Source: Cephalotus follicularis
Lineage: Eukaryota; Streptophyta; Magnoliopsida; Oxalidales; Cephalotaceae
Direction of reading: 5' to 3'
NCBI GenBank assembly: GCA_001972305.1
Contig: BDDD01002869.1
Span: 62,001 to 126,000 of the forward strand
Length of the DNA: 64,000 bases
Every line of letters starts with the position of its first letter. The stretch's first letter is position 1. This document shows positions 4,032 to 64,000 of this stretch, piece by piece. The notes beneath the pieces are model-generated. The model worked only from the letters and a program-made list of their open reading frames with translations, had not been told where the DNA came from and ran no database searches. The translations under genes and the position numbers were made by a program.

Positions 4032-4650
4032 TGTAATATCCCGTTTCTATGCTTACATGTTATTGATGGTTTTTTACCTTTTGATATATGCTAAGGTTTG
4101 TGAACGATTTGATTTATAGTTTGAAATTCTTTTATTTCTGTTTTCTGGGCACAAAGCGCCGACGCTCTTATTAGAACCGCCGACGCTTTGGGTGCTGTGT
4201 GACACGTTGACGCTTAAACGTGTGACATTGATGCGTTTTGTATTTAAGTGTTTAACCGTCGACGCTTTAAGTAAACAGTCGACGCTTTGGTCGGCTTTCC
4301 ATACCAGTTTGGATGGTGGGCTGTTTAGGGAAAAAAGGGGGTTTTGCCATTTTTGTTTATCTGATTTTCCTTCTTTGTTTGGAACCGAATCTGCAAGAAA
4401 GGAAACTCATTAGTTGCACGATTTCATCATGAATTTTACACGTTTTGTTTATTTATAAACTGATTATATTATTTGAGAAAGAACATCTACACATTTTTAA
4501 CAAACGCGAACAGCAACTTTGCAAGAATTTTTCTACACTGATTTTGACGTCTTTTGAAGGTAATTTCTAAACAAAAAATTGTAGCTTGTATTATGTAGTT
4601 TCTATACCACCCATTAATTCATATTGAAATAGGCTAGAATTCATAATGAG
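4032..4650 (+). mobile_element. 3' LTR of element A, first part only
   Basis: The LTR starts with TGTAATATCCCG right after the purine tract. It matches the reverse complement of the right end of the solo LTR at 15372-17916, including the GCGTCGACGCTT-type sites and the TTGACGTCTTTTGAAGGTAA region near 4540. Similarity fades near 4650. The rest of the LTR (about 1.9 kb in the other copy) is missing or replaced by segment E. The phased TCGA array at 4157-4290 lies inside it. Confidence 0.78.
4157..4290 (+). repeat. Phased TCGA-core palindrome array, LTR A
   Basis: Six sites of the form CGYCGACGCTT or CGTTGACGCTT have core tetramers at 4159, 4180, 4207, 4228, 4259 and 4279. The intervals are 21, 27, 21, 31 and 20 bp. 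The DNA between sites differs, so this is not a plain tandem repeat. Confidence 0.75.
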
Positions 4651-5387
4651 CAACATGAATGAATGCATTGTGATGCAGTACAATATATATATCGCAGTAT
4701 ATATATATCACATTATATACATGTATATGTATATGCATGTTCACAATACAGGTATAACCTCATAAGGCTATATCAACACAAGTAGCAAGTATGTCCCCAA
4801 AAGGAACCAGACAAACAAGTCGTCATGACCGTCGCCACCTCCTGGCCCCAACGTCATGCACTCTTACTCCAATCCCCGTTTGCGAACGGTTTGAAGAAAT
4901 TATTCCGTACAGGTTGCTTAGCACGAAGGCTAAACAATCAAAAGGTTATTAGCACAGCCGCCAATAATCAACAAGCACAAACACCGTACAGTACAAGTCA
5001 AGCAATAAATATAATTACTTGATCAAATATATTTGTTTAAAATATAAAACTCTGTTCTCAGGTTGTAATAAGTTATAAAACTTAAAACAATACGATTTGA
5101 TTGTATAACCAATCCTTTAAACATTTCTCTGTCTTTGGAAAATACTTTCACCAGTCATATCGAAAATATATACGTATTTGACAAATATACATTTTCGTGC
5201 AAATAATGATTTTTGGAATCATGCAAGCTTTTCAAAATGGTTAACACTTTTTAGCAATCAACCACAATGCAATCCACAATACAGTAATAATGCAAACACA
5301 TGCTCATAATGCATCTAGGATCGTTCCTAGAGTCGTTTCAGGTCTAACGGGTCCCACTCGAGTGAAACTCTTCCAAACAAGGGGATA

Positions 5388-5900
5388 AGCATCGATGTTT
5401 ATCCCAAAGGCATCGACGTCTTTTACCCTAAGGCGCCAACATTGCGTGCAGTCATTCCCAGGCATTTTTGGACCAAAGACATCGATGCTTTTCCAAAGAC
5501 GCCGATGTCTTTATGATACCAGGAAGTATCAGATCGCGAAGCTTGATTCTAGAGGTTAGAATCCGACCCTTTAATCCTTCGTATAAACAAACCTCACTCT
5601 CTCAAAGTGTAAGGCATGCTACTGGTTAACAGGGGATGTAACCATAACTTTATTTCATGGATAAAACATGCAATCACCAAGGGCAGTTCACCAACAACAG
5701 TAAGCACTACTGTTCTGCAATACCCAGAAAAGGCGTCGATGTCTCCCCAAAGACATCGATGTCTTTCGCATTCTCACACGAAGGCATAACACTACTGTTC
5801 TATAATGCCCAGAAAAGGCATCGATGTCTTTACTCAATCATCGATGTCTTCCACATTTTCACACGAAGGCATCGATGTCTTCGTGTAGACGTCGATGTCT
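5388..5900. repeat. Phased TCGA-core array, segment E (first block)
   Basis: Sites such as GCATCGATGTCTT, ACATCGATGCTTT and GCGTCGATGTC occur in groups. Core positions are 5392/5413, 5482/5502, 5736/5756, 5821/5841 and 5872/5892. Intervals within pairs are 20-21 bp, and 5841 to 5872 is 31 bp. Confidence 0.75.
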
Positions 5901-6659
5901 ATCCAACCCAGAACGTTTTCTCCATAGTTTTAACACACCAAGCCATTATCAAATCCATCCTTTACACAACCAGTTCACATATTTATGTAATCACACATGC
6001 ATGGTTACTCCATATTTCACAGTAATCATCACAGAAGTCCAGAGATTACAATTCACCCATTAACATGCAATTCATCAATGGCATTCATTATCTTAAAACT
6101 CAAAATGCATGTATAAGAATCATCACTTTCCCCTACCTTGTTGTTCCACGTTATGAACTGGAAAGTCCACCCCTTTAAGTTCCAAACTGGTTACAGCAGC
6201 CTCTAGGTCCTTCCCGTTGCTGTAAGCCACTAGCTCCAAGTTCCAAGCTCCAACCAAGCTCAACAATGGTGTCTCTCTCTTTCTCCCACTCACTGGTTTC
6301 CTCCTCTTCCTTTCCTTTGGTGTTTTAAACGAGAGAGAGAGGTGGGGAGGGGGTTGTTCTGACGCAGATGGCTCCCTATCCCTCTTTCTCCCTGCATTCA
6401 ATGAGCACTCTCGTGCTCTCTCCCTCTTTCCTAGTGAGTTTCTGCCTTTTTATTTTCTTCTCATGTTTTTTATTTGCAGGTTGCATGCATGGTAACACTT
6501 GCTACCTTCTTCATCCTTCTTCAGTCATGCAGGTCAGGAGGCCATTATGCATGATCAACACGTCTCCTTCTCGTGCCTCAAGGCGCCTGCAAGGATCCTA
6601 ATTCCTTCCCTCTTGCATGTTACTCTGTCAGTCCATAACATGACTGATGTTCTTTTCAA

Positions 6660-6810
6660 AGACGCAGACGTCTTCCATAGACATCGATGTCCTTTCCCTT
6701 TTCACACGAGGGAGTCGATGTCTTTGCCTACATCGACGTGCATGTAAATGCATCCACGTACGCCTTTGCTCCCATAGGCGTCGACGTCTTTCCAAAGACA
6801 TCGACGCATT
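6660..6810. repeat. Phased TCGA-core array, segment E (second block)
   Basis: Cores at 6684, 6715, 6733, 6781 and 6801, with arms like ACATCGATGTCC and GCGTCGACGTCTTT. Several intervals fit the 20 or 31 bp spacing of the other arrays, though 6715-6733 is shorter at 18 bp. Confidence 0.65.
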
Positions 6811-6981
6811 TATCCCAAAACTGCACCGTTTTGGTTTAAACACACACATTCCTTTCTCCCAAAGCAATAATTAGGGTTTGGTAACATTCTTGAGGTGAAA
6901 TCTCCAACATTTTCATTAATCCAAGCATCCGATTACATTTTAAAATGAAATATTACAAAAACGAAAATACCGGGCGTTACA

Positions 6982-7127: not shown

Positions 7128-10033
7128 TGTAACGCCCGGATTTTTTCACAAAATGTAATATTTCAATTTTAATGTAATCTTATTATGGAATTAATGAGAA
7201 TAGTAAAATTTCCGACTTTGATGATGTTTTCCCTTTTATAACATCGAGTTTTAAAAAAGGAATGATAAGGAAATTTTCAAGACATTGCGCATTGAAGGCG
7301 CAATTATGTTGCCCAAAACGGCTAATAAAGCCTATTTTTTTATGCGCGACAATGATGCCCAATGTTTGCATTTTTAATACGGTTATTTTCATGGCGGCTG
7401 GATTAATTAATATCATAATTTCCAGAATGGATGGGACCCAGACATTAGTATTTGCCAGTAAATACTAAAGAGGAAGCAAAAGATAAAATGAGGGAGAGAG
7501 GGACCACGAGTGCTTCACACACCCGTCTAAAGAAAACATAGCAGGAACGCAACAGAGAGAGAAGGCAAGAGAGTGGGAGAGAAAGCGAGAGAGGGCGTCA
7601 AAGACGACACCAAAGCCAGCCGCCAGACCAGGAGAGGACGGTGTGTAGTTTTTCGACGCCGTTAGTGTCGCGGATGGAGCGTGTATTCATCTAGGAGACC
7701 AGCTCTACCCGTTTTTACCACCGTTTTCTCAGCTTGAATTTTTTGGAATCAGGTACCGCCTAAGACCGTGCATTTGGGCGACCAGTCTTGGATAGTGGTG
7801 GATAGAACTGATGGTTGTGTGGCATTTTTAGGTGGTGGCAGAAGTGGTGGAAGTCGGGCGATTCGACTCAGTGAGTCGCAACTCGCTGCCGCCGATGACA
7901 CGGCTTTCGGCACCGATTGATGGCAAGCCTTGAGCGGTTTTGATTAGATCGCTCAATGTGGAACCTGTTTAAGGGTGTTTCACAAGCTGGGTAAGTTGGC
8001 CGGAATCTGGCCGGCGCTCAGGTGACGGTAATGTTGATTTATGTGTGTTGCTCGTAACAAAAATGTATTATATGTGCAGCGAGTGAGTTGGTAATTTGGT
8101 TCGACAGTGAAGGGAAGTGATAATTTGTAGTTGGCAGCAACTTCGAAGTGTTCGGCAGTTGAACCTGCAGCTCGACTGTATTGTTGCTATTGTTAACAGG
8201 TAGGGTGTATGACTTGTTTATGAACATATAGCATGCATATCATGTTTGATAAATGCTATGCATGTGTGTTTTGGACTGAATCACATGTATTTTTGTGTTA
8301 GTTTTGCTGTTGGGTATGGTTTCGATGAAGAAACCATGTTCTGGTTTCATACACGTCAATGCCATTCGTAAGCGTCGACGCCCAAACCAGCAAACATGCA
8401 CAACAGCTAGTTTTTGGTGCAGAGGGAGACTTCATTTTTTTAATTAATGGACACATGTCAAGCTAGGGAGTGAGGACTTAAGATATTTTTGAGGTTGGCT
8501 AGGATGAATCATGGGAGAGAAGGAGATTAAAGCAAAGTAAGGATTTCTAATCTTTTTCCAAAGTATTTTATGTTTGCAAGGATTCTGCTCTTTTCCTAAA
8601 GTATCAAATATTCTGTTTTATTCTGTTATGTTTTGTATGTTTCAAAATTCTGTCAACTTATTGACGAAAGACTATGTTCAAAATTATTTTTAAGTTTTCT
8701 CTGGAAATGATTATTTCTATATGTTGTGGAATGCTGTTTTATGAATGCCTTGAGCTGATCACTCAAAGTATTAAGAAATGTTTTATGAAATTGTTTTACG
8801 AAATGGGAAAAAGTAACGAATTCAGATGAACAACTCTTGGATTGCGATCCAAGGAGGATTAATCTAGTAAAGATTAATGTTATGGAGCAAGATGCTCACG
8901 GACATGCATGTGATGTAAGGGTAGTAATCGGGGGAGTGCACAATGCCCGGATGAAGAATGGTTCAACTAAGTTATGTATGAAATATTCAGATTCATGAGA
9001 TATGATCAGAAAAAGGAAAGGAATGTGAAATGTTCTGATTCATGAGATATGATCATAAAAAGAAATAAAATGTTCTGATTCATGAGATATGATCAGAAAA
9101 GAGGAATGAATGTGAAATGTGCTGGTGTTTATACCAGAAAAGGATTTTAAAGGATGTTTCGATTTCAAGTATGGTTGTGCTATATACCAGAAAATGTATG
9201 AGTTTAGAAATGTTCAATTTTATGAAAATTATCAAAAAAAGGGAATTCGATGGTGAAATGTTCTTGTTTTATAAAACTAGAAGATTATTTTCAATGATGT
9301 TTTTAAATGTATGATTTGGAAACATTTTGGTAAAGATTATCAAAAACAATGTATTTCAATAATGTTTTATGACTATGATTCTTACTGAGCTATTTGAGCT
9401 CACTCCTTTCAACGTTTTGTTTTCAAAAAAACTTTTCCAGGAAATGGTTGAACGTGAAAGTGCGAGCTTTAGAGGAAGTTCGCAAAAGAAGTGTTGGAAA
9501 TGAAGTATGTTATGCAATAACGTTTTGTACAACTACTTTTGATGTAATGAGTTATATGACAGATGATGTATAAATGTAAACATATAGAAATGAAGGTTAT
9601 AATATATGATGTTTTCAAATAAGTACATGATGTTTTGATGTTAGTGTTGAAAGTGTAAAGCATAATTGAGATTATGAGAAGCATGATGATTTTAACGCTT
9701 AATGTTCAACGTTGCAAGCATATTTCGGTCCTGTGAAGCTATTGAATATGATGTGATGTTTCCGCTGAGTAATGATGTTATGTTTTGAGGAGAATCTAAG
9801 CTAAGATCAATTGTTGTAATAAAGGTTAGCCATGATGAGTACAAGAAAATTTGAATTCTTCATATTTTTGAATTATGAGGTTATCAAATACAATATAACA
9901 TAGAGATGATTAAATGGTTAATAGATCGTTAAATGACTAAATGATTTTATAGTTAATGGGTCACCCCACGTAACGCATCGATTCCTCGAGGCTCTCTTTA
10001 AGCATAAAGCGGACTCGGATCGGGGACGTTATC
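7128..10033 (+). mobile_element. B-family LTR, left copy, shared by two internal regions
   Basis: The LTR starts TGTAACGCCCGGATTTTTTC and ends near GGGGACGTTATC, just before a PBS. It is about 2.9 kb and strongly similar to the right copy at 13305-22043. The 8750-8940 stretch is almost identical to 15010-15240. Because a B internal tail lies on its left and a PBS plus gag on its right, it serves as 3' LTR of one unit and 5' LTR of the next. It contains a short tandem repeat (8985-9115) and a pair of TCGA-type sites near 8356 and 8375. No protein is encoded. Confidence 0.83.
8985..9115 (+). repeat. Short tandem repeat with palindromic unit in B LTR
   Basis: About three copies of a unit containing TTCTGATTCATGAGATATGA followed by TCAGAA. 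The ends TTCTGAT and ATCAGAA are inverted, so each unit can fold. The right B LTR has two copies at about 15265-15360. Confidence 0.72.
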
Positions 10034-13304: not shown

Positions 13305-15371
13305 TGTAACGCCTGGATTTTTTCACAAAATATAATATTACAATTTTAATGTAATCTTATTATGGAATTAATGAGAATAGTGAAATTCCCGACTTTGATG
13401 ATGTTTTCCCTTTTATAACGTCGAGTTTTGAAAAAGGAATGATAAGGAAATGCTCAAGACATTCTGGATTGAAGCCACAATTATATTTCCCAAAACGGCT
13501 AATAAAGCCTATTTTTCTATGCCCGACAGTGAGGCCCAATGCTCGCATTTTTACTACGGTTATTTTCGTGGGGGGTTGGATTAATTAATATCGTAATTTG
13601 CTGAATAAACGGGACCTGGACATTAGTATTTGCTGGTAAATACTAAAAAGGAAGCAAAAGATAAAAGGAGGGAGAGAGGGATCGCGGGCGCTTCACGGGG
13701 CCATGTAAAGAAAACATAGCGGGCGCTGAACAGAGAGAGAAGGCGAGAGAGTGGGAGAGAAAGCGGGAGAGGGCGCCGGAGACGACGCCGAAGCCAGCCG
13801 ACAGACCAGGAGAGGACGGCGAGCAACCCAGGCTCCTCAACCGACGGTAACCCTTCTCTCTTCTCCTCCTTTTCTCTTTTCTTTTCTTCTCTTCCCAGTC
13901 ACTGTGCGCCTCTGCCGTCTGTTTTGCAACGCCGTTAGCATCGCGGATGGAGCGTGTCTTCATCTAGGAGACCAGCTCTACCCGTTTTTACCACCGTTGA
14001 GGTGTTTCTAGGCTTGAATCGGCCAATATAAGCAGCCACCTGAGACCGTGCATCTGGCGCCGAGTCTTAGACAGTGGTGGGTAGAACTGATGGTTGTGTG
14101 GCATTTTTAGGTGTTGACCGAAGTGGTGGAAGTCGGGCTAGTCGACTCAGTGAGTCACAACTCGCTGCCGCCAGTGACATGGTGTTCGACGCCGATTCAC
14201 GACGAGTCTTGAGCAGTTTTGAGTAGATCGCTCAATGTGGAACCTGTTTATAGGTGTTTCAACAGTTGAGTGAGTTAGTAGGAATCTGGCCGACGCTCTG
14301 GTGACAGCAATGTTGATTTATGTGCGTTGATTGTAATGGAAATGTGTCGTATGTGCAGTGAGCTAGTTGGTAATTTGGTTCGATAGTGAAGGGAAGTGAT
14401 AATTGACAGTTGGAAGGAACTTGGAAATGTTCGGCAGTTGAACCTACAGCTCTACTGTATTGTTGCTATTGTTAACATGTAGGGTATATGACTTGTTTAT
14501 GAACGTATAGCATGCATATAGTGTTTGATAAATGCTATGCATGTGTGTTTTGCATTGAATCGCATGTATTGTTGTGTTAGTTTTACTACTGGGTGTGGTT
14601 TCGATGAAGAAACCATGTTCTGGTTTCATACACGTCAACGCCATTCGTAAGCGTCGACGCCCAAACCAGCAGACATAAACAACAGCTAGTTTCCGGTGCA
14701 GAGGGAGACTTCATTTTTTTTTAATTAATTGACACATGTCAAGCTAGGGAGTGAGGACTTAAAATATTTTTGAGGTTGTCTAGGATGAATCATGGGAGAG
14801 AATGAGAGAAGGAGATTAAAGAAAAGTAAGGATTTCTAATTTTTTTCAAAGTTTTTTATGTTTGTAAGGATTCTGCTCTTTTCCTAAAGTGTCAAATATT
14901 ATGTTTTATTCTGTTATGTTTTGTATGTTTGAAATTCTGTCCACTTATTGAAGAAAGACTATGTTCAAAGGTATTTTTAAGTTTTCTCTGGAAATGATTA
15001 TTTCTATATGGTGTGGAATGCTGTTTTATGAATGCCTTGAGCTGATCACTCAAAGTATTAAGAAATGTTTTATGAAATTGTTTTACGAAATGGGAAAAAG
15101 TAACGAATTCAGATGAACAACTCTTGGATTGCGATCCAAGGAGGATTAATCTAGTAAAGATTAATGTTATGGAGCAAGATGCTCACGGACATGCATGTGA
15201 TGTAAGGGTAGTAATCGGGGGAGTGCACAATGCCCCGGATAAGAATGGTTCAACTTTGTTATGTATGAAATGTTTTGATTCATGAGATATGATCAGAAAA
15301 AAGGAAAGGAATGTGAAATGTTCTGATTCATGAGATATGATCAGAAAAGAGGAATGAATGTGAAATGTGCT

Positions 15372-17916
15372 TGTAACTCCCCCGATGATGGGAGCCCTTA
15401 CAGGTCATAATACCAAACTGAAACATAACGGAATACCTAAACAATAGACTGATGCGAAACGGATGTGGTGGTCTAATATCATAAATTATAGCAAATTGAT
15501 ATAAGATAGTGGCAGAAAATTTAACCAATCATAAATAAAAACAAACCATAATCCGATATCCAAATACTGTTTAAGATGAAAACATAACTAGAACAAAACC
15601 AAAATCTGAAACTGTTTTTACTGAAAACTAATCTGATTCTACTGGAAAACACAAGGACCAACTCCTAGATGATCCTCTGACAAGTGGGTAACTCTCATCA
15701 CACGTTTCCCCCATGCTCCTGAAAACCTGCCGCATAGAAACAAAAACGCAGCTGAGCAAACCTCAGTATGGATAAGGAATTAAAACAGTAAACGGTAGAT
15801 AGGATAACTTGAACTTTGAATTCAGTAAAGTAACATAGTAAATATTCTTTAAAATGTAAAGTAGAATATTTAAAAATGAGCAGTCATAGAATCATCATAA
15901 CTTTATGAAAACATAACATCATAATTCAAAACATTATCTGATTTCATAATTCCATAACAGAGAATTTCTGACATACATACATATATAGGTGCAAGGGGTT
16001 CGCGAGGCCTACATGCTCTGACGGAAAAGTCATGTATGGCACTACACAAACAATCCCAAATACTGAATTTCTGAATTCTGACAATAACTAGAGTATACTC
16101 ATACGCCTCGAAAGGATCCATATCCTACTCTCAGGATACATATTTAAAAGAGACGCCGTAGACCAATCACACCGCCATGGTAGGTGTCATGTCCTCCGTG
16201 CCAAAGAACATGCCTATGATACCTCATAGGTAGGGTTTTTCTCTGTATGTTATTATGCTAAAACTTTGTTTTATTCTAAAACAATTCTAAAATGTACTTA
16301 GGTAATCTGTCTCCACACATATCTGAAATTATTTAAAAAGAATCGTAAACGTACTTTCATACCAAAATCAAAATCAAAATCTTATCTGTATCTGAAATTT
16401 CAACATACTTCCTAAAGTGGAAGCCATGTCAAAAATAATAACACATTTACGATAATAGAAAATATGCATATCCATATCCGATGTAATAAAATTCATTTTA
16501 ATAAGACTATTATCAAAACGAGAATATCTGTATCAAAATACAAGTTTTATTTCTAATAAAACCAGGAACATAAATCCATTCAATAAAACGTACAAAATCA
16601 TCAATTAATGAAAGTTTAATCGAAGGAGTACCAAAGAACGAAGAATTCGTACCTTAGCAGGTCGAAAACCTAAGCAATCTAAAATACCGGACAAAAGCAC
16701 CCTATAAGTGTCCTAAACTCCTCCACGAATGATATTAGGGCCTAAACATATGAGTCCAAACATCACATAACATAAAAAGATCAAAACTGCCATAAAGCGT
16801 CGACAGTTTAAACTTAGGCATCGACGGTTTCGCTGTATAAAAGGACAAAGCGTCGAGCAAGGAGTCGACTGACCACAGCACAAAACAGTACAAAGCGACG
16901 ACGCTCAAGGAATAAGCATCGACGGTTTGCGTCGAGCAAAGAATTCCAGTTGCAGAAAATAGTTTCAAATCCATGGCTACATCTGATTTTTCTTAAACAC
17001 AAAGCATAATTACCGACATGCAGGTTCTTAAGACGTTGTTTTTAAGTTCAAAACGCCAGATATACATATGACTACATACAAAAAGTAAAACACATTTTGA
17101 AACATAATTTTCTGGTATATAAACAGTTTATGCAAACCTAACTTCAATCCGAATTTTTTTGTGTATAAATCCAAAAATCAGTGACATATATATATCTATA
17201 ACATGAATTCGTTGCTTTAAACACCGGTGTATCAATTTAAACATGTAAGGATAAGAAATACATAATGAGTTCAAACAGCATAAATTTATTTCAACGGGCC
17301 TCTAAAAACATGATCAAAACAAATTCTAGCATGTTTGCATTCGAAACTAATAGTTGATACATAAACTACATAATACATACTACAACTTTCGTTTAGAAAT
17401 TACCTTCAAAAGACGTCAAAAACAATGCAGAGAAGGACTTGCAAAGTTGTTGTTCGTGTTTGATAAAAATGTGCAGAAATGAGTTTTGAGTTTTAAAAAC
17501 AAATTGTCTGATTAATGCACAAATCCGTGTGTTTAATGGAAATATAAGTGTTTTAAGACATTACCAAATAAACCAAAACGCGTCAGATACATAAGGAAGA
17601 TCGGATAGCCAAAGGAAGGAAAGAATCCAACATTCCAAAAACACTGTCACCGTCCAAAACAATTAAGGAAGATGACCAAAGCGTCGACGGTTAAACACTT
17701 AAATAAAAAACGCGTCGATGTCACACGTTTTGGCATCAACGTGTCACTCAGCACCCAAAGCGTCGGCGGTTCTAATAAGAGCGTCGGCTCTTTTTGCCCA
17801 GAAATCAAACATAAAGGAGTGTTCAAACTAAAAATCAAAGCGTTCACAAACCATAGCATATATCAAAAGGTATAAACCCAACAATAAACATGTAAGCATA
17901 GAAACGGTATATTACA
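15372..17916 (-). mobile_element. Solo LTR of A family, reverse, TSD GTGCT
   Basis: The insert begins TGTAACTCCCCCGATG and ends GGTATATTACA. It is flanked by the 5-bp duplication GTGCT (15367-15371 and 17917-17921). Reverse complemented, its first 600 bases match the 3' LTR of element A. It contains no gag, pol, PBS or purine tract, so it is a solo LTR left by recombination between two LTRs. Phased TCGA sites lie at 17684-17787 and, less regularly, at 16800-16925. Confidence 0.9.
17684..17787. repeat. Phased TCGA-core array in reverse A solo LTR
   Basis: Core positions are 17684, 17715, 17736, 17763 and 17784, giving intervals of 31, 21, 27 and 21 bp. These are the counterparts of the array at 4157-4290 in the forward A LTR. 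A second, looser group (16800, 16821, 16853, 16865, 16919) lies further inside. Confidence 0.7.
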
Positions 17917-17938
17917 GTGCTGGTGTTTATACCAGAAA

Positions 17939-20900
17939 TGTAATATCCCGTTTTTCCGTAAAGAATTTTTGGGTTTTTCGATTTGTTTCGTGTGGGCTAC
18001 CGATTGTTTTTCGGTTTGTGGACTGCCCATTTTTCGGTTTGTTTTACTTTTGGCTTGGCTAAGTGGGTTTTAGTCTTAGCCATTGGGTTTTGATTTTGAG
18101 TCTATGAAATAATAAAATAAATTTTTTGGCTTTTTATTTTTGTGTTAAAAACCATTTTCAGCAATTTTAACAAAAGAAACCCCATTTTGTGTTAAAAATT
18201 GTATTTCTCTCCCACACTCTCTCTCTCCCTCTCTCTCTCCCTCTCTCTCCCGACCATCTCTTTCTCTCTCCCGTTCTCTCTCCTCCTCTCACCTGCTGCC
18301 TTCACCGTCAGTGCCGATATGGCACCGGCGAAGACACCGGTCGAACCCCCGTGACGCCCTGAGTCCACCGCACCCAACCCCTGCACCGGCCGACGTCTCC
18401 TCCGGCGTGCGCGACGTCTTCTCTTCCCGGAACTGTTTGGCGTCGATTCTCCCTCTCCGCTGATCGGCACGACAAGGAAACCACAGATTCGGCATCTTGA
18501 CGATGAGATGAAGCAAACCCGACCGGCCTCGACCCTTGACGACGTCGGAAAAGCAGATCGGCGCAATGACAAGCCGCGGTCAAAAGCTTCTGTTCCGGCC
18601 AAATGCGGCGGTTTCAAGCCAAACTCGCCCCAGATATGATATCACCGGCCTCAAACGGTCCAGATCGGCTCTTTTTGGTGACTGACCGACGACGCGTGAC
18701 AGACACGCGCCGGACAGCGGGGCTCACGCGCCGGCGACCCTCCGGCGAGAAATTTTTTTGGACAGTTTCCGACTTTGCTCTTCGCGTAGGTGTGATCCAT
18801 TCCAGTTCCGCGATGTGATTATGGCTCTGTGCTCTGTTTCGAATGCTTTTGGTAAACTTTGAACCCTACTCCGTTACATTCTATTTTCGATTGATTTATG
18901 TATTTATGTAATCGTTTTAAGATATTATGAGCTGAACTAGTATTATGATTCGAAATTGGATGAATTGGACAAATTGGACTTACCTTAATGGATTCAAAAA
19001 TATGTTTAGATGAGACTTCTACGAATTGGACTTAATAAACCTATCATTATGTTATATGGTCCTGATTAGTGTACAATGACCCATGAGTTGAGGTCTGATT
19101 TTATTTCAAGTCCTTATGAGAACGATTTTATTTCTGTTAGATGTTTGCAACAACCGAGGAGTGGTCTAGAGAAGTCTTGATATATGTTCTCGAGGTTGTT
19201 TTTGGTGATCGCATGAGGTACGGATCTTCGTTTCTCTGATACCGTCCTACTGTTTTTATAGTAAAAAGATAGTTTTACTTTATGGATAACGTACGGATTT
19301 CTATCGTTCTTTGGCTATCTGGTTATCAAACTAAAATCAGTTTTATGTTATGTTCTCGTTTTATAGACTTTGTTATGTTTTATGATATGTTTCGGAAATA
19401 AAGTACGGATGCTTTCGTTCTTTGGCTATCCTTTTGGTTTGATCGTAATAAATTCAGTTTCTGTTTTGGAAGTGCAGATTTTATTGTTTTTGGGCTATCC
19501 AATTTATTTGAAATAAACCCAGTTTTATAAGTATGTTCCTTTGGATTTTATGAATGTTGTTATGTTTCAGGTTTTGACACGTTCTGGAACTAAAGTCGGT
19601 TTTGATATTTTTACGAAATTAAATGTTCTGACTTTATATATGCTCATTTATGATTTGTTTATGAAATGCTATGCGATCATCTCTTTTATGGTGAATTAAA
19701 ATGAGTTGATTTCTGATTGTGAAAACGTTTGGATTTCTTCGTTTTTGGATCATTATCCTCCGATTTTATTGAAATGAATTCAGATATGTTTTCCGTATGG
19801 ATTCTTCGTTTTGACTATTATATTTCGATATGATTCGAATAAAATCCGATTTATTACTTTGTGAATATAGTTAAAGATTAATGGTTTTATTTTTGGACAT
19901 GAGCATGACTTTCACTATCGAGAGTATGTTAAATGGGCATGACTTTCCCTATCGAAAGTATGCTGATTTTATGAAATGATATGTATATGTTTTGAATTAG
20001 TTTTGGAGTAAACCAATATATGAAATGATTTTGATAAATCATTATTTTTGAAATACTAAGTTTTTGATATGGAGATATACTGAGCTTTTATAACCACCTA
20101 TGGGGGTACCATAGGCATGCTGTGAGCCTGGCACTGGGGCATGACACTTTCTGTAATGGTGTGATTTGTTTACGGCGTCTCTCTGTGATATCTGTAGATC
20201 GGATTTGTGATAGAGGCGTATGGATCGCTCCTAGTTATGTGTTTTTGGGATATGTTATGATATGGGAATTGTATGTGTAGTGCCGTACACTGCAATTCTA
20301 TTTGCAATGTGGAATTAGCTACTCCCTTGCTACTATGTGTTTCTGATATGTTATGTGCTCAGTTATGGAACCTATGTTTTGGGAAAGATATGCTTTATAC
20401 TTTCAAAGTATGGAACTTATGTTTTGAAAGTTTTCGTGTATGTTTTGAAAGTTATGATCCGTTGTTTTGAAAAGGTACACTTTACGGTTTCAAGTTATGG
20501 ACTTGTTTTATATATTTTGCCGTGGGCAATTGCAAAGTAAGTTTAAACTATTTTATTGCTTCAGATTTCTGTTTTGAGCTAACTTTGAAATCTTACTGCT
20601 TTTAAATTATCGTTTAACGTTTTCTGCTTTGTTTTGTTCCGTAATCTGTTTGTTTTGTACTGATCAGAAACTGTTTTCTTTTGTTTCGCAAAATGTTCTA
20701 CTATATTTCGTAAAGTGTTTCGTTTCATAAAATGTTTTGTATCATATTGTGTTGTTTCAGATACTGTAATGAACATGATATTGTTTTTTTTCGGATACTG
20801 TGTCGTTTTAGTAAACTGCTTTATTTTGGATACAGTTTTGTTTCGTTCTGTTATGATTCGTAACTGATCTGTTTTGATTCGTATCTGTTTTGATCAGTAT

Positions 20901-21373
20901 CTGTTTTGATTCGTATTTATGTTGTTTCGTTACTGATTTGTTTCATAAACTGTTCGTAAACTGTTTTATGATTCTATATCTGTACTGAGGTTTGCTCAGC
21001 CGCGTTTTTGTTTTCCATGCGGCATGTTTTCAGGGACAGCCTGGGCAAGTGTGATGAGAGAGTTACCCTATGTCAGAGGATCATCTAGGAGTTTGATCCG
21101 TTATGCTTTTAGTAGTGTTATGGTTGTGTATAGGCCAGTTATCTAAACAGTATGATGATTTTTGGATTATGATATTTTGGGTTATGATAAAGATTTCAGA
21201 TTATGTTTCAGATTCAGTTTATGTTTCATGATGATACATGTTTTCAGATTTTTAGAACCACCACGTATTGATGATGATTAAGATTAAGATCTTGATATGT
21301 TTTTAGTTCAGTTTTGTGTGACACACCGATCCCGAATCGGGAGTGATTCCGGTTCCGAATCGGGGGTGTTACA
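17939..21373 (+). mobile_element. Solo LTR H, forward, TSD AGAAA
   Basis: The insert begins TGTAATATCCCGTTTTTCCG and ends AATCGGGGGTGTTACA, with the 5-bp duplication AGAAA on both sides (17934-17938 and 21374-21378). At 3.4 kb it is long, but no gag-pol frame is present. A CT-rich run (18205-18290) and a GC-rich leader (18295-18760) follow the promoter region. Near 20985-21100 it shares sequence with A-family LTRs (CTGAGGTTTGCTCAGC; CAGAGGATCATCTAGGAG), so it is a relative. It lacks the phased TCGA arrays. The open frames at 18192-18617 are in the GC-rich leader and are not convincing genes. Confidence 0.88.
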
Positions 21374-22043
21374 AGAAAAGTATTTAAAATGATGTTTCGA
21401 TTTCAAGTATGGTTGGGCTATATACCATAAAATGTATGAGTTTAGAAATGTTCTAATTTTATGAAAATTATCAGAAAAACAGAATTCGATGGTGAAATGT
21501 TATGGTTTTATAAAACTACAAGATGATTTTTAATGATGTTTTGAAATGTATGGTTTGGAAACATTTTGGTAAAGATTATCAAAAACAATGTATTTCAATA
21601 ACGTTTTATGACTATGATTCTTACTGGGCTATTTGAGCTCACTCCTTTCAATGTCTTATTTTCAAATAAACTTTTCCAGGAAATGGTTGAACATGAAAGT
21701 GCGAGCTTTAGAGGAAGTTTGCAAAAGAAGTGTTGGAAAGGAAGTATATTATGCAATAATGTTTTGTACAACTACTTTTGATGTAATGAGTTAATGTTTT
21801 TCGCTGTGTAAGGTATTATGACAGATGATGCATAAATGTAAACGTATAGAAATGAAGGTTATAATATATGATGTTTTCAAATAAGAACATGATGTTTTGA
21901 TGTTAGTGTTGAAAGTGTAAAGTATAATTGAGATTATGAGAAGCATGATGATTTTAACGCTTAGTGTTCAAAGTTGTAAGCATATTTTTGTCCCGTGAAG
22001 GCTCGCTTTGAGCATAAAGCATACTTGGATCGAGGGTGTTATA

Positions 22044-42562: not shown

Positions 42563-42564
42563 AT

Positions 42565-47837: not shown

Positions 47838-49665
47838 TGGGTGTCACTCATCACACGTTTCCCGAATGCTGTATCAGAATACCTGCCGCATGGAAACAAA
47901 AATGCGACTGAGCAAACCTCAGTACGGATATAGAGTCATAAAACATAAAACGATACTTTAAAGAATAGAAAATACCTGAACCTTTAAAATATCACGTATC
48001 TCATGTATAAAATAATTCAACATTAATTCAGAAATGAAGGGGAGTACTCACATAGACAATTCTATCAATTCGAAACCAATATGAAAATTTCAAAGCGTTA
48101 ACAACTTTTCAAAACAATAACTGAAAACAAAATCTAATTTTCAAAGCATAATCTCAGTTTCAATGCAAATCTAAAATTCCAAAACAGTAACCAAAACAAT
48201 ATTCAAAATTTCTTTAACGTTATCCGAGTTAAAGATTCCAAAACAAAAACTTATCCGATTCCATAATCTCATCATAGAGATCCAAAACATATAACAGAGA
48301 TTTATCCGATTCCGAAATCTCATCATAGAGATCCAAAGTACATACACATATGCATAAGTGCAAGGGGTCTGCAAGGCCCACATGCTCCGATGGAAAGACG
48401 TGTACGACACTACACAATCAATCCCCAAAATCCGAATCCTTAACATATCCTAGGATCGACCCATACGCCTCTATCATACATAACAGATTCATAAATCTAC
48501 CTCATGGGATTTATTCAAAACATAGAGAGACGTTGTAGTCTAATCACACCGCTACGGAAGTGTCATGTCCCCGTGCCAGGCCTACGACATGCCTATGGTA
48601 CGCCCCATACGTGAGAAATATCTCTGTATATCCTTATTCAAAGTAAACATACTTCCTAATGTGAAAGTCATGTTCGTTTAACACACTTCGATAGTAGAAG
48701 TCATGTTCCTTATCAAAATCATTATACTTTCATAAATGGAAAATCATCTTAGTTATTTTCAAAATAAAGAGACGATTGCATAATATTTCGTAAATATTTC
48801 AGAATCGAATTATAAAGCCAGAAATATTCATTTTCACAAAAATATCATACCGACTTTATTTATAAACATATCAAAATTCAGAGCATAACGGGGTTCATAA
48901 AATCGAAGGAATCATATTCATAAAACAAAACTGAATTTATCGAAGAGGGTGTCAAAGAATGAAGTATTCATACATTATTCATGAAGTACAACTATCTTTT
49001 TACTATAATAAAACCAATAGGAGGGTATCAAGGAACGAAAAATCCGTACCTTAAGCGATCACCGAAATGACTTACAAATTGATCGACAAATTTCTAATTG
49101 TCCCTCGTAGCACAAAAATCTAAAAGATACAATATCATACACATAAGGGTTCAAAAACTACTTTCGAATATCAAAACCGAAGTTAAACAGTATTTAAAAC
49201 AAGTTCCGATTCATTAGAAGGACAAACGAATAACAAAACTTGAAACCATGATTTTACTGGGCAAAACTAGTTGACTGTTACAAAATCCAGTAGACTGTCT
49301 GGGGCATGGCAGTCGACTGTATCACATGACCAGCCGACTACTCAAACAAAACTACAGCCAGCCGACTGTGACAGGGGTTCAATCAACTGTGCAAGACAAA
49401 ATAGCCGACTGTTTTACAAGGCATTCGACTACTCAAGGCCTAACAGTTGACTGTTTACATAGACATCTGACTGTTCTGGGTGACAGAGAAACAAAATATG
49501 ACAGTTCAATGCAATTGTGCTGTCAAAACCCAAATATTACAATACCAGAGTGCCATAAACACCTAAAGGGACTCTATGTGGTATTTAAAACAGTAATATA
49601 ACACTGAATCTTAAAAGAGAGTACTGACAGTGGTTTTACTTGTAAAGAGAGATGACTTCTAAACA

Positions 49666-51480: not shown

Positions 51481-53050
51481 TGTTCATGAATTTTGAATGT
51501 TTTAAATTTATACCGCAAGTGCACGGTTGTGCAGTAACAGGTCAAACACTAGGAAATCAAGTTAAATTAATTTTAATCTATTTAACATAGGTATAGTATG
51601 CAAAACAGAAGATTATTATCAAAATCTACTCCTAAACATGCAAAATAAACTAATTAATTAAAATAGGAACTGAAGCGTCGACGCTTTGTCAAGGCGTCAA
51701 TGTGAATAGAATTAAAGCAAGAAAGCGCTGACGCTTACAAGGTAGGCATTGACGGTTAACGCACTAATGCGACAATAAACAGAAATTAAAGCAGGAAAAC
51801 AATTAAATATCAAAGCAATAAGTAAAAGAGAATAAAATATGCAAGAAAAAGTCGGTTTTAGGGTATAGAAACTCACCATAGATTTTATTGAACAATTCAC
51901 TTACTTGAACGATCAAACCCAGATAACCAACGGCAGCTAGGTCGATACAGAGTACAACTGTGATGACAAATCATATGAGTAGTCATGCTATGTCTATATG
52001 GAGTATGACAGCAGCGACAAATCGTATTAGTAGACATGCTAGGTCTATACGGAGTGTGTTCGGCGTGACAAACTATATGAGTAGACTCCATTGATTACAT
52101 TAAAAACCATCCATTCAACAACCTTCTTATTCACCGACAAGATGTTTGTGGATTTTAATCAAACAAGTAAAGTGTGTGTGAAGGCAGAAATTTGAAGAAC
52201 AAATCGAATATTCAAGGATTTTATTGATGGAATTGAAGCAATACAATCTAATGGCTTGTTCTTACCCTTAAAACCTTAAAGGTAGCTACTAAACATTTTT
52301 AATAAACTAAAAATTGAATTGAAGAAGAAAAGAGAGTAAGAGGGTGGCTACACACTATTTATGGCCGGCCACTAATGTATTTACATTTACAAATATGCTA
52401 AAAATGGAAAGAAAATGACCTAGTTACAAAACTGACAAAAATCTGAACTTTCCATATTTGCTATCAGCAGTCGTAAGTGTCGACGCTTTTGTATGTTGAA
52501 TGCGCTAAACGTCAACGTAACTCTTGCGATATGGGGCATACTTGAGCGTTAAGCGTCGACGCTTACAAGCAAGGCGTCGACCCTTAACTAGTGAAGGCAG
52601 GAAGCGTTGATGTCTTGATCATTACACGTTAACGTTTAAGCTACTGTTTGATTTGTGCATTTTTGGCGTTGACGTCTTGATCATGCCGTTGACGCCTAAG
52701 CATTGAATTCCCATCACGTTGATGCCAAACTGACTAGTGTTGACGAAAATCATGAAACTGCAGATTTGTTTATCCTAAAGTGCGAAGCGTCGATGCTTTA
52801 TATTTTACCATCAGCGCTTAAGAGTTAGGCATCGATGCTTAAAGTCTAGGCATCGACGCTTAGCTCTGTTTTCTACAGCATTTTGTCCAAGTTGAACCAT
52901 TCTTCATGCACTTTGGTCTTTTTAGCTTTGTACCTGAAAATCAACATAACACAACCAAAGTAGTCTATTCCAAGCATAAAAATATCACAAATAAATCATT
53001 AAAAACAACACATTTTTATGCTAAACAAATACCCTCATACCTAAACTTTG
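51481..53050 (-). mobile_element. Probable LTR of Tat element
   Basis: The ACCGCAAGTGCACGG stretch at about 51520 is a sequence I associate with LTRs of this branch in many plants. Arrays of TCGA-type sites lie at 51675-51760 and 52480-52856. Ends and target duplication were not resolved, so the limits are approximate. 53050-53800 has no coding content. Confidence 0.5.
52480..52856. repeat. Phased TCGA-core array in Tat LTR
   Basis: Cores at 52480, 52512, 52556, 52577, 52607, 52629, 52669, 52689, 52719, 52740, 52790, 52811, 52832 and 52853. Most intervals are 20-22 or 30-32 bp; the last four sites are exactly 21 apart. Arms are of the GCGTCGACGCTT or GTTGACGCC type. Confidence 0.78.
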
Positions 53051-55700: not shown

Positions 55701-57776
55701 TGTAGCGCCCCCGACCTGAGTCCGCTTTAAGCTCAAAGCGAGCTCCGAAGATCGGTGCGTTACGTGTGTGTAACCTTTGACCGTTAAATCGTTTAATCAT
55801 TTAACGATCCATTTCATATCATAAAATCTTGGCTTAGATTTAAAACCTAACATTATTACTTCATAACTTCACAGGATCGCATGTGCTTACATCTTTGAAA
55901 CACCAATTTCAAAATGTCATATTCTCATTATCATGATCGTTTCTAAGATCCTTCATTCTAACTTTTCTTAACATGTAACCTTTCACAGTGGAAAATATAA
56001 ACTTATCACATCATAAAACAATCATAATCTCACCTTTATCATTAACTTCTCATAATCTCAAAAATGTTCAATAACTTTCAACACAGTTTCTAAACATCGT
56101 CATCTTATTCGAAAACGTCATAAACTATAACATTCACTTCTATACTTTAACATCTATACGTCGTTTATCATAACACATTACACAGCGGAAAACATTAACA
56201 CATGACATTAAAACATAACTTCATAGCATATCCTACTTTCTTTCCTTACTCTTCCTTCGCGAACTTCCACTAAAGCTCGCAACTTCACGTTCAACGTTTC
56301 CTGGAAGATTAATTTGAAAACAAGACATTGAAAGGAGTGAGATTTTAAGAGCCCAGTAAGAATCATAGTTATAAAACGTTATCGAAATCAGTTATTTTTG
56401 ATAATATTTATCAAAACATTTCAAAATCATAAATTTCATAATATCTTTGAAAATCATTTTCTAGCTTTATAAAACCAGAACATTTCTAAAATCATACATT
56501 TTCTGGTACATATAACCAGCATACTTGAAAACAATCAAAAACGTTTTCCAATCATACTTTCTTTTGGCTTGTATCACGGCCATACTTGAAAACATCAGTA
56601 AAAAATCATTTTCTTCACATTCATAAGCAAAACATCTTTAAAATACTTTTTCTATTCGTATATCATGAAACACAAAATTTTATAAAACTTGGTGGTCGTG
56701 AACCTCTTGTGAACCCATTTACACCGTTTCACCGGGGCATTGTGCACTCCCCGATTACTATCCTTACATCACATGCATGTCCATGAGCACTTTACGCTCC
56801 ATTAACATTGAGCCTTCACTCCATTTACATTGAGCCTTCGCTCCATTCCCCTTGGAAGATCGCAATCCAAGGGCAGTTCATTTTTAATCTTTATGAGATT
56901 AATCCTCACTGGATCGCAATTCAGTAGTTGTTCATATAAATTCATTTTGTAAAACATTTCATAAAACATTTCTTATAAAACATTTCTATGCTTTGAGTGA
57001 CCAGCTCAAAGCATTCATAACACATTTCTCTTCATTTGAATAATTAACTCAAATGCATTCATAAAACATTTTCATAAAACATTTCTCTTCATTTGAGTAG
57101 TTAACTCAAATGCATTCATAAAACATTTTCTAAAACTGGTTTCTCATGTAGAAACCTTCACTTCATTTCATTTCACAATCATAAAACATTTCTCATCACT
57201 CTGAGTAATTAACTCAAAAACCTTTATAAAACAGTTTTGCATCACTTTACTAAAATAGATATTTCATATAGAAATAATCACTTTCATAGAAAACTTAAAA
57301 CATAGAAGTTAAATTAGACATCTCAATGAATCTGTGGATATACAAATCATAAAATTCCATTGAGAAACGAAGCTGCAATGAATTTTTAAAGTTGCAGTTT
57401 CCTTTTGAAAACAGGACCTGAGCAGTAGAAGAAAACATAGTTTTTCATCAAGACTTTGACAGAATTTCAAGATGCATAAAACATAAAAGCTAAAGTAGAC
57501 ATCTTGAGGTTTTCAAAACATTAAACCATTTGAAATTTCATCAAGAACTCAGAAAGATATGAATTAAAGTATCTACTGCATAATTTTGAATCAAAACAGA
57601 GGAAAACTTTGATGAAATGGGTATAGAATCTCCTTACCTCACTTGATCTCCTTCTCTCCTTCTCTCCCACGAATCTCCCTCTTCAATAACATCAGAAAGC
57701 AACCCTTTATTAAGCTTTAGAAGGCACACATATATAAAGGGAAAGGGAGACTTGGAGGTTAAGTCTTGCACATGCC

Positions 57777-57905
57777 ATAAAGACTTGGGGTCAAAGTCTC
57801 CTTGCCATAAAGACTTGGGGTCAAAGTCACATTCCATAAAGACTTGGGGTCAAAGTCTTCTTAGTCTTGCACATGCCATAAAGACTTGAGGTCAAAGTCT
57901 CCTTA
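57777..57905. repeat. Minisatellite in G LTR (left), unit about 30-56 bp
   Basis: Repeats of AAGACTTGGGGTCAAAGTCT with short spacers, about four units. The right LTR has six or so at 63290-63510. Confidence 0.87.
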
Positions 57906-58020
57906 TTAGCAAAATATCATAATTCATCCATCCCTTGCTTGACATGTGTCCTACAATTCATTTAATTCCTCCGAAATGGGGTAAAAAGCTAGAATTCTTC
58001 ACCTGACACAGGGCAAAGCG

Positions 58021-58231
58021 TCGACTCTTTTCCTTTAAGCGTCGACTGTCACAGCCTTTACCTGAGTTTTTCACCTCTATCCCGACTAAAGCGCTGACGC
58101 TTTCTTACAAAGCGTCGACGCTTTAAGTCTTCATCCAAGTCAACTGACACATTAATCTTCAACGCGTCGACGTCTTAAATTAGGACATCGACCGTTGTCC
58201 AAAGCGGCGACGCTTTAAATAAGTCCGTCGG
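58021..58231. repeat. Phased TCGA-core array in G LTR
   Basis: Four pairs, 58021/58042, 58094/58115, 58167/58188 and 58207/58228, each exactly 21 bp apart. Arms are GCGTCGACGCTT and close variants. The right LTR repeats it at about 63628-63840. Confidence 0.83.
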
Positions 58232-58515
58232 CGCTTTAGACAGTTTTGTCAACTTTAGCCTTTTAGATCGATGTTTTCAGCATGACATTCATCCAAAACA
58301 AATATCCAAATAAAATTTTCTTTCGGGGGTGCTGCCCCCCAAACCCCTGCCCGCTGTCCGGGGAGCGGGACCCCCCGTCGGCTCACCGGGGAGCGGAACC
58401 CCCGTACTCCCCGAGCGTAGGGTCATACTACAGGTCCCTTGAAATATTTGGCAACTACACAATAGCAATCATCTTTCCATAATTAATATCTTTACTGGAA
58501 ATTCGGGTCATTACA

Positions 58516-58870
58516 ATCTACCCTCCTTATAAAAATTTTGTCCTCAAAATTTTTTATACCTTATTCTCAAAAGACGAGGGTATTTATGTCTCACTACTTC
58601 CTCCAATATCCAAGTGACTTTGTAGACTTCATTATTCCTTCACAACACCTCCACTAATGGAATCGTCTTGGTTCACAGAACTTGTTCTTTAGAATCCCAA
58701 AATCTCCAATAGTCCAATGTATCATAGACTAATTTTTCCCCTTTTTGCCAAATCTCTTTTAAGTCCTTTCCAAGGCGATACCTTTAAGAGAAACATAATT
58801 TCCCACCTCAAACTGTAATTCCCTTTGTTTCTTATCGACATAACTCTTTTATTCATTTTGGGCTGCTAGA
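58516..58870 (-). pseudogene. Purine tract and integrase C-terminus relic of element G
   Basis: Beside the LTR the minus strand reads AAGGAGGGTAGAT, the purine tract. Further in, KVTWILEEVVRHKYPRLL is a chromodomain end, and ELQFEVGNYVSLKGIALE with KRFGKKGK is the integrase C-terminal block. Stops and frameshifts separate the pieces. Integrase zinc and catalytic domains are not found. Confidence 0.72.
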
Positions 58871-61477: not shown

Positions 61478-62804
61478 TTCCTGTAGCACCCCCGACCCGA
61501 GTCCGCTTTAAGCTCAAAGCGAACTCCGAAGATCGGTGCGTTACGTGTGTGTAACCTTTGACCGTTAAATCATTTAATCATTTAACGATCCATTTCATAT
61601 CATAAAATCTTGGCTTAGATTTAAAACCTAACATTATTACTTAATAACTTCACAGGATCGCATGTGCTTACATCTTTGAAACACCAATTTCAAAATGTCA
61701 TATTCTCATTATCATGATCGTTTCTAAGATCCTTCATTCTAACTTTTCTTAACATGTAACCTTTCACAGCGGAAAATATAAACTTATCACATCATAAAAG
61801 AATCATAATCTCACCTTTATCATTAACTTCTCATAATCTCAAGTATGTTCAATAACTTTCAACACAGTTTCTAAACATCGTCATCTTATTCGAAAACGTC
61901 ATAAACTATAACATTCACTTCTATACTTTAACATCTATACATCGTTTATCATAACACATTACACAGCGGAAAACATTAACACATGACATTAAAACATAAC
62001 TTCATAGCATATCCTACTTTCTTTCCTTACTCTTCCTTCGCGAACTTCCACTAAAGCTCGCAACTTCACGTTCAACGTTTCCTGGAAGATTAATTTGAAA
62101 ACAAGACATTGAAAGGAGTGAGATTTTAAGAGCCCAGTAAGAATCATAGTTATAAAACGTTATCGAAATCCGTTATTTTTGATAATATTTATCAAAACAT
62201 TTCAAAATCATAAATTTCATAATATCTTTGAAAATCATTTTCTAGCTTTATAAAACCAGAACATTTCTAAAATCATACATTTTCTGGTACATATAACCAG
62301 CATACTTGAAAACAATCAAAAACGTTTTCCAATCATACTTTCTTTTGGCTTGTATCACGGCCATACTTGAAAACATCAGTAAAAAATCATTTTCTTCACA
62401 TTCATAAGCAAAACATCTTTAAAATACTTTTTCTATTCGTATATCATGAAACACAAAATTTTATAAAACTTGGTGGTCGTGAACCTCTTGTGAACCCATT
62501 TACACCGTTTCACCGGGGCATTGTGCACTCCCCGATTACTATCCTTACATCACATGCATGTCCATGAGCACTTTACGCTCCATTAACATTGAGCCTTCAC
62601 TCCATTTACATTGAGCCTTCGCTCCATTCCCCTTGGAAGATCGCAATCCAAGGGCAGTTCATTTTTAATCTTTATGAGATTAATCCTCACTGGATCGCAA
62701 TTCAGTAGTTGTTCATATAAATTCATTTTGTAAAACATTTCATAAAACATTTCTTATAAAACATTTCTATGCTTTGAGTGACCAGCTCAAAGCATTCATA
62801 ACAC

Positions 62805-62965
62805 ATTTCTCTTCATTTGAATAATTAACTCAAATGCATTCATAAAACATTTTCATAAAACATTTCTCTTCATTTGAGTAGTTAACTCAAATGCATTCAT
62901 AAAACATTTTCATAAAACATTTCTCTTCATTTGAGTAGTTAACTCAAATGCATTCATAAAACATT
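62805..62965. repeat. 58-bp tandem repeat in G LTR (three units; two in other LTR)
   Basis: Units contain TTCTCTTCATTTGAGTAGTT and AACTCAAATGCATTCATAAA. The matching place in the left LTR (57025-57130) has two units. ACTCAAAT and ATTTGAGT are inverted within each unit. Confidence 0.87.
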
Positions 62966-63289
62966 TTCTAAAACTGGTTTCTCATGTAGAAACCTTCACT
63001 TCATTTCATTTCACAATCATAAAACATTTCTCATCACTCTGAGTAATTAACTCAAAAACCTTTATAAAACAGTTTTGCATCACTTTACTAAAATAGATAT
63101 TTCATATAGAAATAATCACTTTCATAGAAAACTTAAAACATAGAAGTTAAATTAGACATCTCAATGAATCTGTGGATATACAAATCATAAAATTCCATTG
63201 AGAAACGAAGCTGCAATGAATTTTTAAAGTTGCAGTTTCCTTTTGAAAACAGGACCTGAGCAGTAGAAGAAAACATAGTTTTTCATCAA

Positions 63290-63510
63290 GAAGACTTGGG
63301 GTCAAAGTCTCCTTGCCATAAAGACTTGGGGTCAAAGTCTCCTTACCCTTGCACATGCCATAAAGACTTGGGGTCAAAGTCTCCTTAGTCTTGCACATTA
63401 CATAAAGACTTGGGGTCAAAGTCTTCTTAGTCTTGCACATTCCATAAAGACTTGGGGTCAAAGTCTTCTTAGTCTTGCACATGCCATAAAGACTTGAGGT
63501 CAAAGTCTCC
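63290..63510. repeat. Minisatellite in G LTR (right)
   Basis: About six repeats of AAGACTTGGGGTCAAAGTCT with spacers such as CCTTGCCATA or TCTTAGTCTTGCACATGCCA. A 118-codon open frame across it on the minus strand is repeat translation. Confidence 0.87.
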
Positions 63511-64000
63511 TTATTAGCAAAATATCATAATTCATCCATCCCTTGCTTGACATGTGTCCTAAAATTCATTTAATTCCTCCGAAATGGGGTAAAAAGCTAG
63601 AATTCTTCACCTGACACAGGGCAAAGCGTCGACTCTTTTCCTTTAAGCGTCGACTGTCACAGCCTTTACCTGAGTTTTTCACCTCTATCCTGACTAAAGT
63701 GCTGACGCTTTCTTACAAAGCGTCGATGCTTTAAGTCTTCATCCAAGTCAACTGACACATTAATCTTCAACGCGTAGACGTCTTAAATTAGGACATCGAC
63801 CGTTGTCCAAAGCGGCGACGCTTTAAATAAGACCGTCGGCGCTTTAGACAGTTTTGTCAACTTTAGCCTTTTAGATCGATGTTTTCAGCATGACATTCAT
63901 CCAAAACAAATATCCAAATAAAATTTTCTTTCGGGGGTGCTGCCCCCCGAACCCCTGCCCGCTGTCCGGGCAGCGGGACCCCCCGTCCGCTCACCGGGGA

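Follow-up and report, generated by a model that had tools for sequence, protein, structure and literature searches.

Arrays of TCGA-centred near-palindromes, largely in helical phase, in copia and gypsy long terminal repeats of Cephalotus follicularis

The 64-kb stretch of Cephalotus follicularis DNA analysed here (contig BDDD01002869.1, positions 62,001 to 126,000; hereafter the window) consists mostly of nested long terminal repeat (LTR) retrotransposons, and all results on sites, phase and dialects given below refer to this one window. Several of the LTRs carry arrays of short near-palindromes centred on TCGA, and the sites of these arrays largely share one face of the DNA helix. The comparisons support the view that the same sites occur in a copia Sirevirus, in gypsy LTRs of the chromovirus type and in an Athila/Tat-like gypsy element, which are otherwise non-homologous. 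The existence of phased TCGA arrays in several families had been claimed in an original prediction based on the sequence, and it is borne out by an excess of TCGA and by pair distances peaking at whole helical turns.

The elements and their arrays

A complete Ty1/copia Sirevirus insertion occupies positions 33944-43896 on the minus strand, with LTRs at 33944-35255 and 42565-43896 and the target duplication ATAAA. It has the gag-pol order of Ty1/copia elements including RVT_2, an AT/TG junction at its attachment site, four copies of the polypurine tract AGGGGGAG close to its 3' LTR (at 35258, 35496, 35579 and 35635) and the primer site TGGTATCAGAG, which we take to be of the initiator-Met type. 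The array of the 3' LTR (34570-35137, minus strand) comprises 18 sites of the type termed dialect 1 below (about AAAGRCRTCGATGTCTTT), which are located 125-680 bp from the LTR start and are followed, some 90 bp further on, by the TATA box CTATAAAA (34471-34478); the counterpart of this array in the 5' LTR (43191-43778, minus strand) has 19 sites, and the intervals within the LTR groups are 19-22 bp, as predicted. A second cluster with 8 listed sites (37341-37591, minus strand) is found between pol and an open reading frame (ORF) at 35833-36987 which matches PF20167, a putative plant transposon protein. Judging from its position in the env place of the element, after pol, this ORF may be env-like. 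It has 395 database matches, of which all among the 120 listed are from C. follicularis (best 93% identical), and it thus belongs to a large family in this species. The two LTRs (33960-35253 versus 42581-43894) differ by transitions at 10 of 90 CpG columns versus 15 of 1204 columns elsewhere, an excess as would be expected if the element were methylated, and TTGA and TCAA variants of the site may therefore represent methylation decay of TCGA. As a separate observation, the pol ORF (39084-40535) contains a direct tandem duplication of 480 bp in its integrase/SH3 part (39230-40194), the copies of which are 94.6% identical and comprise 160 codons, hence leaving the frame intact.

Amongst the gypsy elements, chromovirus LTR A starts at 4032 (plus strand), the pol of its element containing a chromodomain, and carries an array at 4152-4288 (plus strand; dialect 2, about AAGCGTCGACGCTT) with exactly the predicted spacing of 21, 27, 21, 31 and 20 bp. 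The solo LTR A' (15372-17916, minus strand; target duplication GTGCT) has dialect-2 sites at 16800-16919 and 17684-17715. The dialect-2 array of LTR B (about 55703-58517, minus strand) occupies 58014-58277 (minus strand); counted from the LTR start, its sites are at 247-494 bp and a TATA-like site follows at 781 bp. The corresponding array in a second copy of this LTR (63622-63850, minus strand) is cut by the window end. The sister of LTR B is the solo LTR D, with a dialect-2 array at 45498-45792 (minus strand), and another dialect-2 array, F, lies at 29744-29925 (strand not assigned). LTR S2 (LTR start at 6981, minus strand), the start of which is homologous to LTR C, contains a first array of 5 sites at 6658-6810 and a second one of 10 sites at 5385-5901, both on the minus strand and of dialect 1 as in the Sirevirus, while LTR C has a single pair of sites 19 bp apart (8349-8384, plus strand). 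The arrays of element T (51671-52862, minus strand; dialect 2) are adjoined by a gypsy pol at about 53.8-55.7 kb, which we take to be Athila/Tat-like; its reverse transcriptase and integrase are only 28-29% identical to those of the LTR A element, as compared to 57-69% between the G2 and A elements. Array E49 (49264-49476, strand not assigned), which seems to be absent from the original prediction, consists of 9 sites of another palindrome (dialect 3, about CAG-YYGA-CTG) spaced by 20, 22, 21, 28, 43, 20, 22 and 20 bp. S2, F, E49 as well as two further LTRs, H and X, are provisionally grouped with the chromovirus-type LTRs, solely by partial LTR homology. The observed/expected ratio of CpG is 0.89-1.98 in the array stretches (n = 14) except for E49 (0.48), the window as a whole having 0.76.

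Most of the predicted interval series could be read again once the earlier labels were matched to the present ones by their interval lists (D1 being F, G being B, segment E being S2, and the B-like solo LTR probably being D). Array F, read from 29751 to 29916, has 21, 21, 21, 29, 31, 21 and 21 bp, the first seven of the intervals given for D1, the four pairs at 21 bp are found in LTR B (21, 52, 21, 52, 21, 19, 21), and S2 has the series 21, 20, 20, 20, 31 and 20 within its groups, with the longer gaps of 69, 234 and 65 bp between them. Other series were recovered in part. For the B-like solo LTR, given as 21, 21, 21, 19 and 21, the TCGA sites of LTR D yield 21, 19 and 21. For the Tat-type element, given as 21, 21 and 21, the site list reads 42 and 21. 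Of the two LTRs said to lack arrays, H indeed has none of its 11 TCGA intervals at 19-22 bp, while C, if it is the same LTR, has the one pair mentioned above.

Some further structures were noted at these loci. In the region 15367-21378, two solo LTRs lie 22 bp apart, both inserted in a second copy of LTR C, namely A' and its neighbour H (17939-21373; target duplication AGAAA). LTR G2 contains at 26254-26554 a 49-bp tandem array, the unit of which holds inverted repeats such as GACCAGTCCATTTGGTC, and none of its TCGA intervals is 19-22 bp. Beside LTR D, a nested tandem repeat of 36/67/103 bp (46191-46435) has a unit of about GGTCCTCCCACAATAGTGGGGTCCAC with inverted symmetry. A search of viral contigs with two of the pol proteins gave no relatives, and a two-site pattern gave many matches there which were judged coincidental.

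Spacing and helical phase

For the statistics on TCGA the second copies of LTR pairs (four stretches) were masked before counting. In the window so masked, TCGA occurs 238 times as compared to 169 (standard deviation 11.7) in dinucleotide shuffles, and pairs at 19-22 bp (30 vs 2.6), 29-32 bp (12 vs 2.7) and 40-43 bp (20 vs 2.3) are in excess; in each of these ranges as well as at 48-54, 60-65 and 69-75 bp, none of 200 shuffles reached the observed number, in line with the predicted excess of 20-22 bp spacing over such shuffles. When a jitter control preserves the clustering of sites, the excess remains significant at 19-22 bp (0/2000) and 40-43 bp (4/2000), is weak at 60-65 bp (67/2000) and 69-75 bp (47/2000), and is not seen at 29-32 bp (416/2000) and 48-54 bp (236/2000). 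The pooled best period of 10.1-10.2 bp is largely driven by the Sirevirus. In a scan of 252 tetramers with duplicates left unmasked, the top eight for excess at 19-22 bp were all pieces of the TCGA motif. Per segment, strict TCGA is phased at 10.5 bp in 6 of 11 cases (A', Sirevirus LTR, Sirevirus pre-env cluster, D, T and B; p < 0.05) and not in the other five (A, S2, C, H and E49).

Out-of-sample evidence comes from a symmetric 18-bp site model which was built from 22 Sirevirus sites and applied, with a threshold of 8, to the remaining window without duplicates. Outside the Sirevirus this model yields 56 matches versus a null mean of 8.8 (null maximum 16), of which 15 are in S2, 10 in T, 7 in B, 5 each in A' and D, 3 each in A, C and F, and 5 elsewhere. 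All 29 pairs of matches up to 60 bp apart are separated by 19-21, 30-31, 40-42 or 50-52 bp, in agreement with the original claim that the sites face one side of the DNA. For the 49 matches residing in arrays (the 7 scattered ones being omitted), the best period is 10.4 bp (0/2000 jittered controls), and 26 of the 36 neighbour distances between 12 and 110 bp deviate by at most 1.6 bp from a multiple of 10.35, where 30% would be expected by chance. This does not depend on sister arrays: with D and A'1 dropped, the 26 remaining pairs up to 60 bp give a best period of 10.35 bp (0/1000), all six neighbour distances of 23-60 bp are in phase (p = 0.0002), and when any one of five further arrays is left out as well, the result is again 0/1000. 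Phasing is weaker past about 60 bp; up to 110 bp it is reached by 3 of 1000 controls, and the best period shifts to 11 on dropping B or F.

Since the 31- and 52-bp intervals, i.e., odd multiples of about 10.4 bp, are as precise as the 21-bp interval, a register of 21-nt small RNAs, which had been offered as one explanation of the spacing, is disfavoured.

Site dialects and LTR ancestry

With the sites masked, alignment of 14 array stretches leaves only the sister LTRs A/A' and B/D with alignments longer than 41 bp; the short leftovers are 41 bp within B/D and 15-mers shared by A'/T and B/T (E values of 0.003-0.005). A block transfer or a single shared insertion was therefore rejected as source of the arrays of different families. 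The sites themselves are nevertheless alike, between-family similarity being 0.549 (n = 1778) as compared to 0.328 for random 18-mers.

According to mean similarity over 14 flank positions the sites fall into three dialects. Dialect 1 comprises the Sirevirus LTR, its pre-env cluster and S2 (0.62-0.70 across), dialect 2 comprises A, A', F, T, B and D (0.53-0.67 across), and dialect 3 is that of E49, which stands apart with 0.30-0.44 to all others. Similarity between dialects 1 and 2 is 0.41-0.52, and as little separates 0.52 from 0.53, the two grade into each other for T and F.

The start of LTR S2 resembles that of gypsy LTR C (75 bp, 76% identity, E = 2.8e-6), the downstream part of which is common to B and D; S2 carries the Sirevirus dialect with a similarity of 0.70, equal to that within the Sirevirus LTR. 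Likewise, A', E49 and H have downstream LTR parts in common, yet differ in carrying dialect 2 (A'), dialect 3 (E49) or no array (H). Dialect therefore does not track LTR ancestry. These three dialects cutting across element ancestry had no place in the original prediction, nor had the fact that Sirevirus arrays are already published, as far as the parts considered of PMC2829016 show, as repeated motifs (RMs).

Possible function of the arrays and comparison with known systems

We propose, with a probability of roughly 0.53, that the LTR arrays are cis-regulatory binding platforms, mostly enhancer-like, which unrelated families gained convergently for one or more shared host factors. Each near-palindrome would bind a dimeric sequence-specific DNA-binding protein, and a spacing of two, three, four or five whole helical turns would align adjacent dimers along one side of the helix, enabling them to contact each other or to bring in a coactivator together at the promoter. 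For the Sirevirus, one array would drive the LTR and the second might drive the env-like gene. The unrelated families would have reached such platforms by point-wise convergence on the specificity of a shared host factor and not by one ancestral insertion, and the three flank dialects would suggest related factors. The original prediction of a host-factor platform is in keeping with phased arrays in unrelated families, from which, together with the positions of the sites and the lack of homology beyond sister LTRs, we infer protein binding, cooperativity, activation and a host origin of the factor. As for its identity, the sites are reminiscent of the NAC/VOZ-like GCGT..ACGC and WRKY-like TTGAC motifs, which supports no particular binder.

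A number of observations weigh against this proposal. Once variant cores are included, no more than 3 of the 11 segments show phase by themselves (Sirevirus LTR, pre-env cluster and D). Intervals of 27, 28, 48, 49, 65, 66, 69, 76, 98 and 100 bp are off phase; of the 36 neighbour distances above, ten fall outside the 1.6-bp margin. Site columns are no better conserved than others between sister LTRs (B/D 0.80 vs 0.81, A/A' 0.70 vs 0.87). S2 and A' have a second array about 1 kb into the LTR in addition to the first near the LTR start, and within the window the array-free LTRs H, G2 and X, together with C and its one pair, indicate that an array is dispensable for an LTR. Of the eight LTRs examined, two (Sirevirus and B) have a TATA-like site directly behind the array; in A', C and D the TATA pattern is matched solely far downstream (1.7-2.1 kb in), and A (part), S2 and T gave no match. 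Mainly this TATA result slightly lowers our confidence in a platform.

Going further, and rather doubtfully, one might imagine that the host has a few related TCGA-core factors, each having a flank dialect of its own, and that three unrelated retrotransposon lineages independently built phased platforms tuned to these dialects and switched between them at turnover of the U3 part of the LTR, dialect and not ancestry then deciding which elements are co-activated or co-silenced.

An unlikely alternative, albeit one with a published parallel, is that the arrays act as RNA, with hairpin transcripts being processed to small RNAs and the arrays being silencing hotspots that are tolerated or imposed. 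Palindromes in maize Sireviruses are indeed small-RNA mapping hotspots, according to the passages considered of PMC5311732 and PMC10760457, and compared to dinucleotide shuffles the strands of 11 arrays fold with z-scores of -1.9 to -8.3 (sense) and -0.9 to -8.8 (other strand), whereas four control stretches range from -1.3 to 1.3 over both strands (sense -1.3 to 1.0). However, every palindrome folds, and such scores do not discriminate; the strong structure may be a cause or a by-product. Selection for RNA pairing was rejected for the three inner pairs, as the sense strand shows no preference for G.U (22) over A.C (38), with 116 Watson-Crick and 55 other pairs. In these tests F and E49 were assumed to be on the minus strand for folding and on the plus strand for the pair count, the sign of which they cannot flip because they have too few sites. 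Nor has a helix phase that includes odd multiples any evident reason at the RNA level. By inspection, the stronger, better conserved half-site in sense orientation points left in the Sirevirus LTR and right in A/A' and B/D, T being nearly symmetric; this opposite polarity between LTR families suggests that site orientation does not matter, and jointly with the helix phase and the missing G.U preference it favours a function at the DNA level.

Somewhat less probable still is a neutral origin, in which slippage would amplify units of about 20-21 bp that then decay, so that the spacing is left over from duplication. Parts of the Sirevirus array do consist of tandemly duplicated stretches (112 and 70 bp), with exact 20-bp units at 43191-43245, and the lack of extra conservation between sister LTRs would also be accounted for. 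Against this, similarity among neighbouring sites (0.655, n = 30) does not exceed that among distant sites of the same family (0.665, n = 470), the 31- and 52-bp intervals are in phase with those of 21 bp, and families that share no other homology have the same sites.

We consider it improbable that the binder is encoded by one of the elements, as VANC is for VANDAL transposons, with other families exploiting or mimicking its target. Diverging target arrays and dialects are reminiscent of VANC targets, and VANC6 motifs are also present in a non-VANDAL element, but VANC21 motifs have one orientation and lie within tandem repeats instead of forming phased palindromes (all according to the passages considered of PMC5735166). 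Moreover, the sites are common to lineages that differ in coding content, and the only extra ORF recognised is the env-like one of the Sirevirus, most pol regions having been partly examined. Very improbable is a role of the 10.4-bp phase in nucleosome rotation or DNA bending via A-tracts beside TCGA instead of protein-protein contact: AAAG...CTTT flanks do recur with the helix, but specific letters are common over up to 18 bp, which is presumably beyond what bending needs. An insertion preference for palindromes was rejected as source of the arrays, since it is slight in the part considered of PMC6911290 and leaves them unexplained.

Amongst known systems, the layout of the Sirevirus arrays is that of the published RM architecture, i.e., palindromic boxes that precede TATA and env in the 13 Sireviruses described (Bousios 2010, PMC2829016; this and the following statements refer to the passages considered). 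Common to both are many palindromes in the upper LTR shortly before TATA (at least eight copies there, 18 and 19 sites here), an additional cluster just before the env-like gene (here the 8 listed sites) and a high CpG content. In contrast, a CGG-CCG core, present in 12 of the 13 RMs with Tnd-1 as the exception, is not found here, where the core is about RCRTCGAYGY; two RMs, CGGTCGACCG of Vitis and ACAATCGATTGT of Tnd-1, are centred on TCGA as well. Also, RMs were reported to be confined to Sireviruses and missing from the 'classic' Ty1/copia elements compared, whereas the sites described here extend to chromovirus-type LTRs of gypsy elements and to the neighbourhood of an Athila/Tat-like pol, and these passages do not mention helical spacing between boxes. 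Palindrome arrays have so far been described as a Sirevirus trait, and the same phased sites in unrelated gypsy LTRs suggest a common binder. This would amount to the testable rule that whole helical turns plus dialect decide which elements respond together; if true, copia and gypsy regulation would be linked within one genome, and the arrays would be ready probes for the binder.

In maize, the cis-region of Sirevirus LTRs has clusters of palindromes with strong predicted RNA structure that are small-RNA hotspots (Bousios et al. 2016, as cited in the passages considered of PMC5311732 and PMC10760457), and such structure is also predicted over the present arrays. One maize palindrome is likewise common across superfamilies (Copia and Helitron), whereas Ty3/gypsy elements of maize are generally without a structure peak and the gypsy LTRs here carry arrays. 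VANC targets, as portrayed in the parts considered of PMC5735166, similarly form dense arrays of short motifs in noncoding transposon parts and diverge between relatives, but they belong to DNA transposons, are non-palindromic, have one orientation and are bound by an element-encoded protein; here there is no tandem motif in the same orientation but near-palindromic sites, although the Sirevirus has its 112- and 70-bp repeats. In the literature searched, by titles and abstract openings and with most subscription journals outside coverage, helically phased or copia/gypsy-shared LTR palindromes were not found. As compared to these known systems, the occurrence of the same sites in gypsy chromovirus and Athila/Tat-like elements, their helical phase and the dialects crossing ancestry are thus apparently new.

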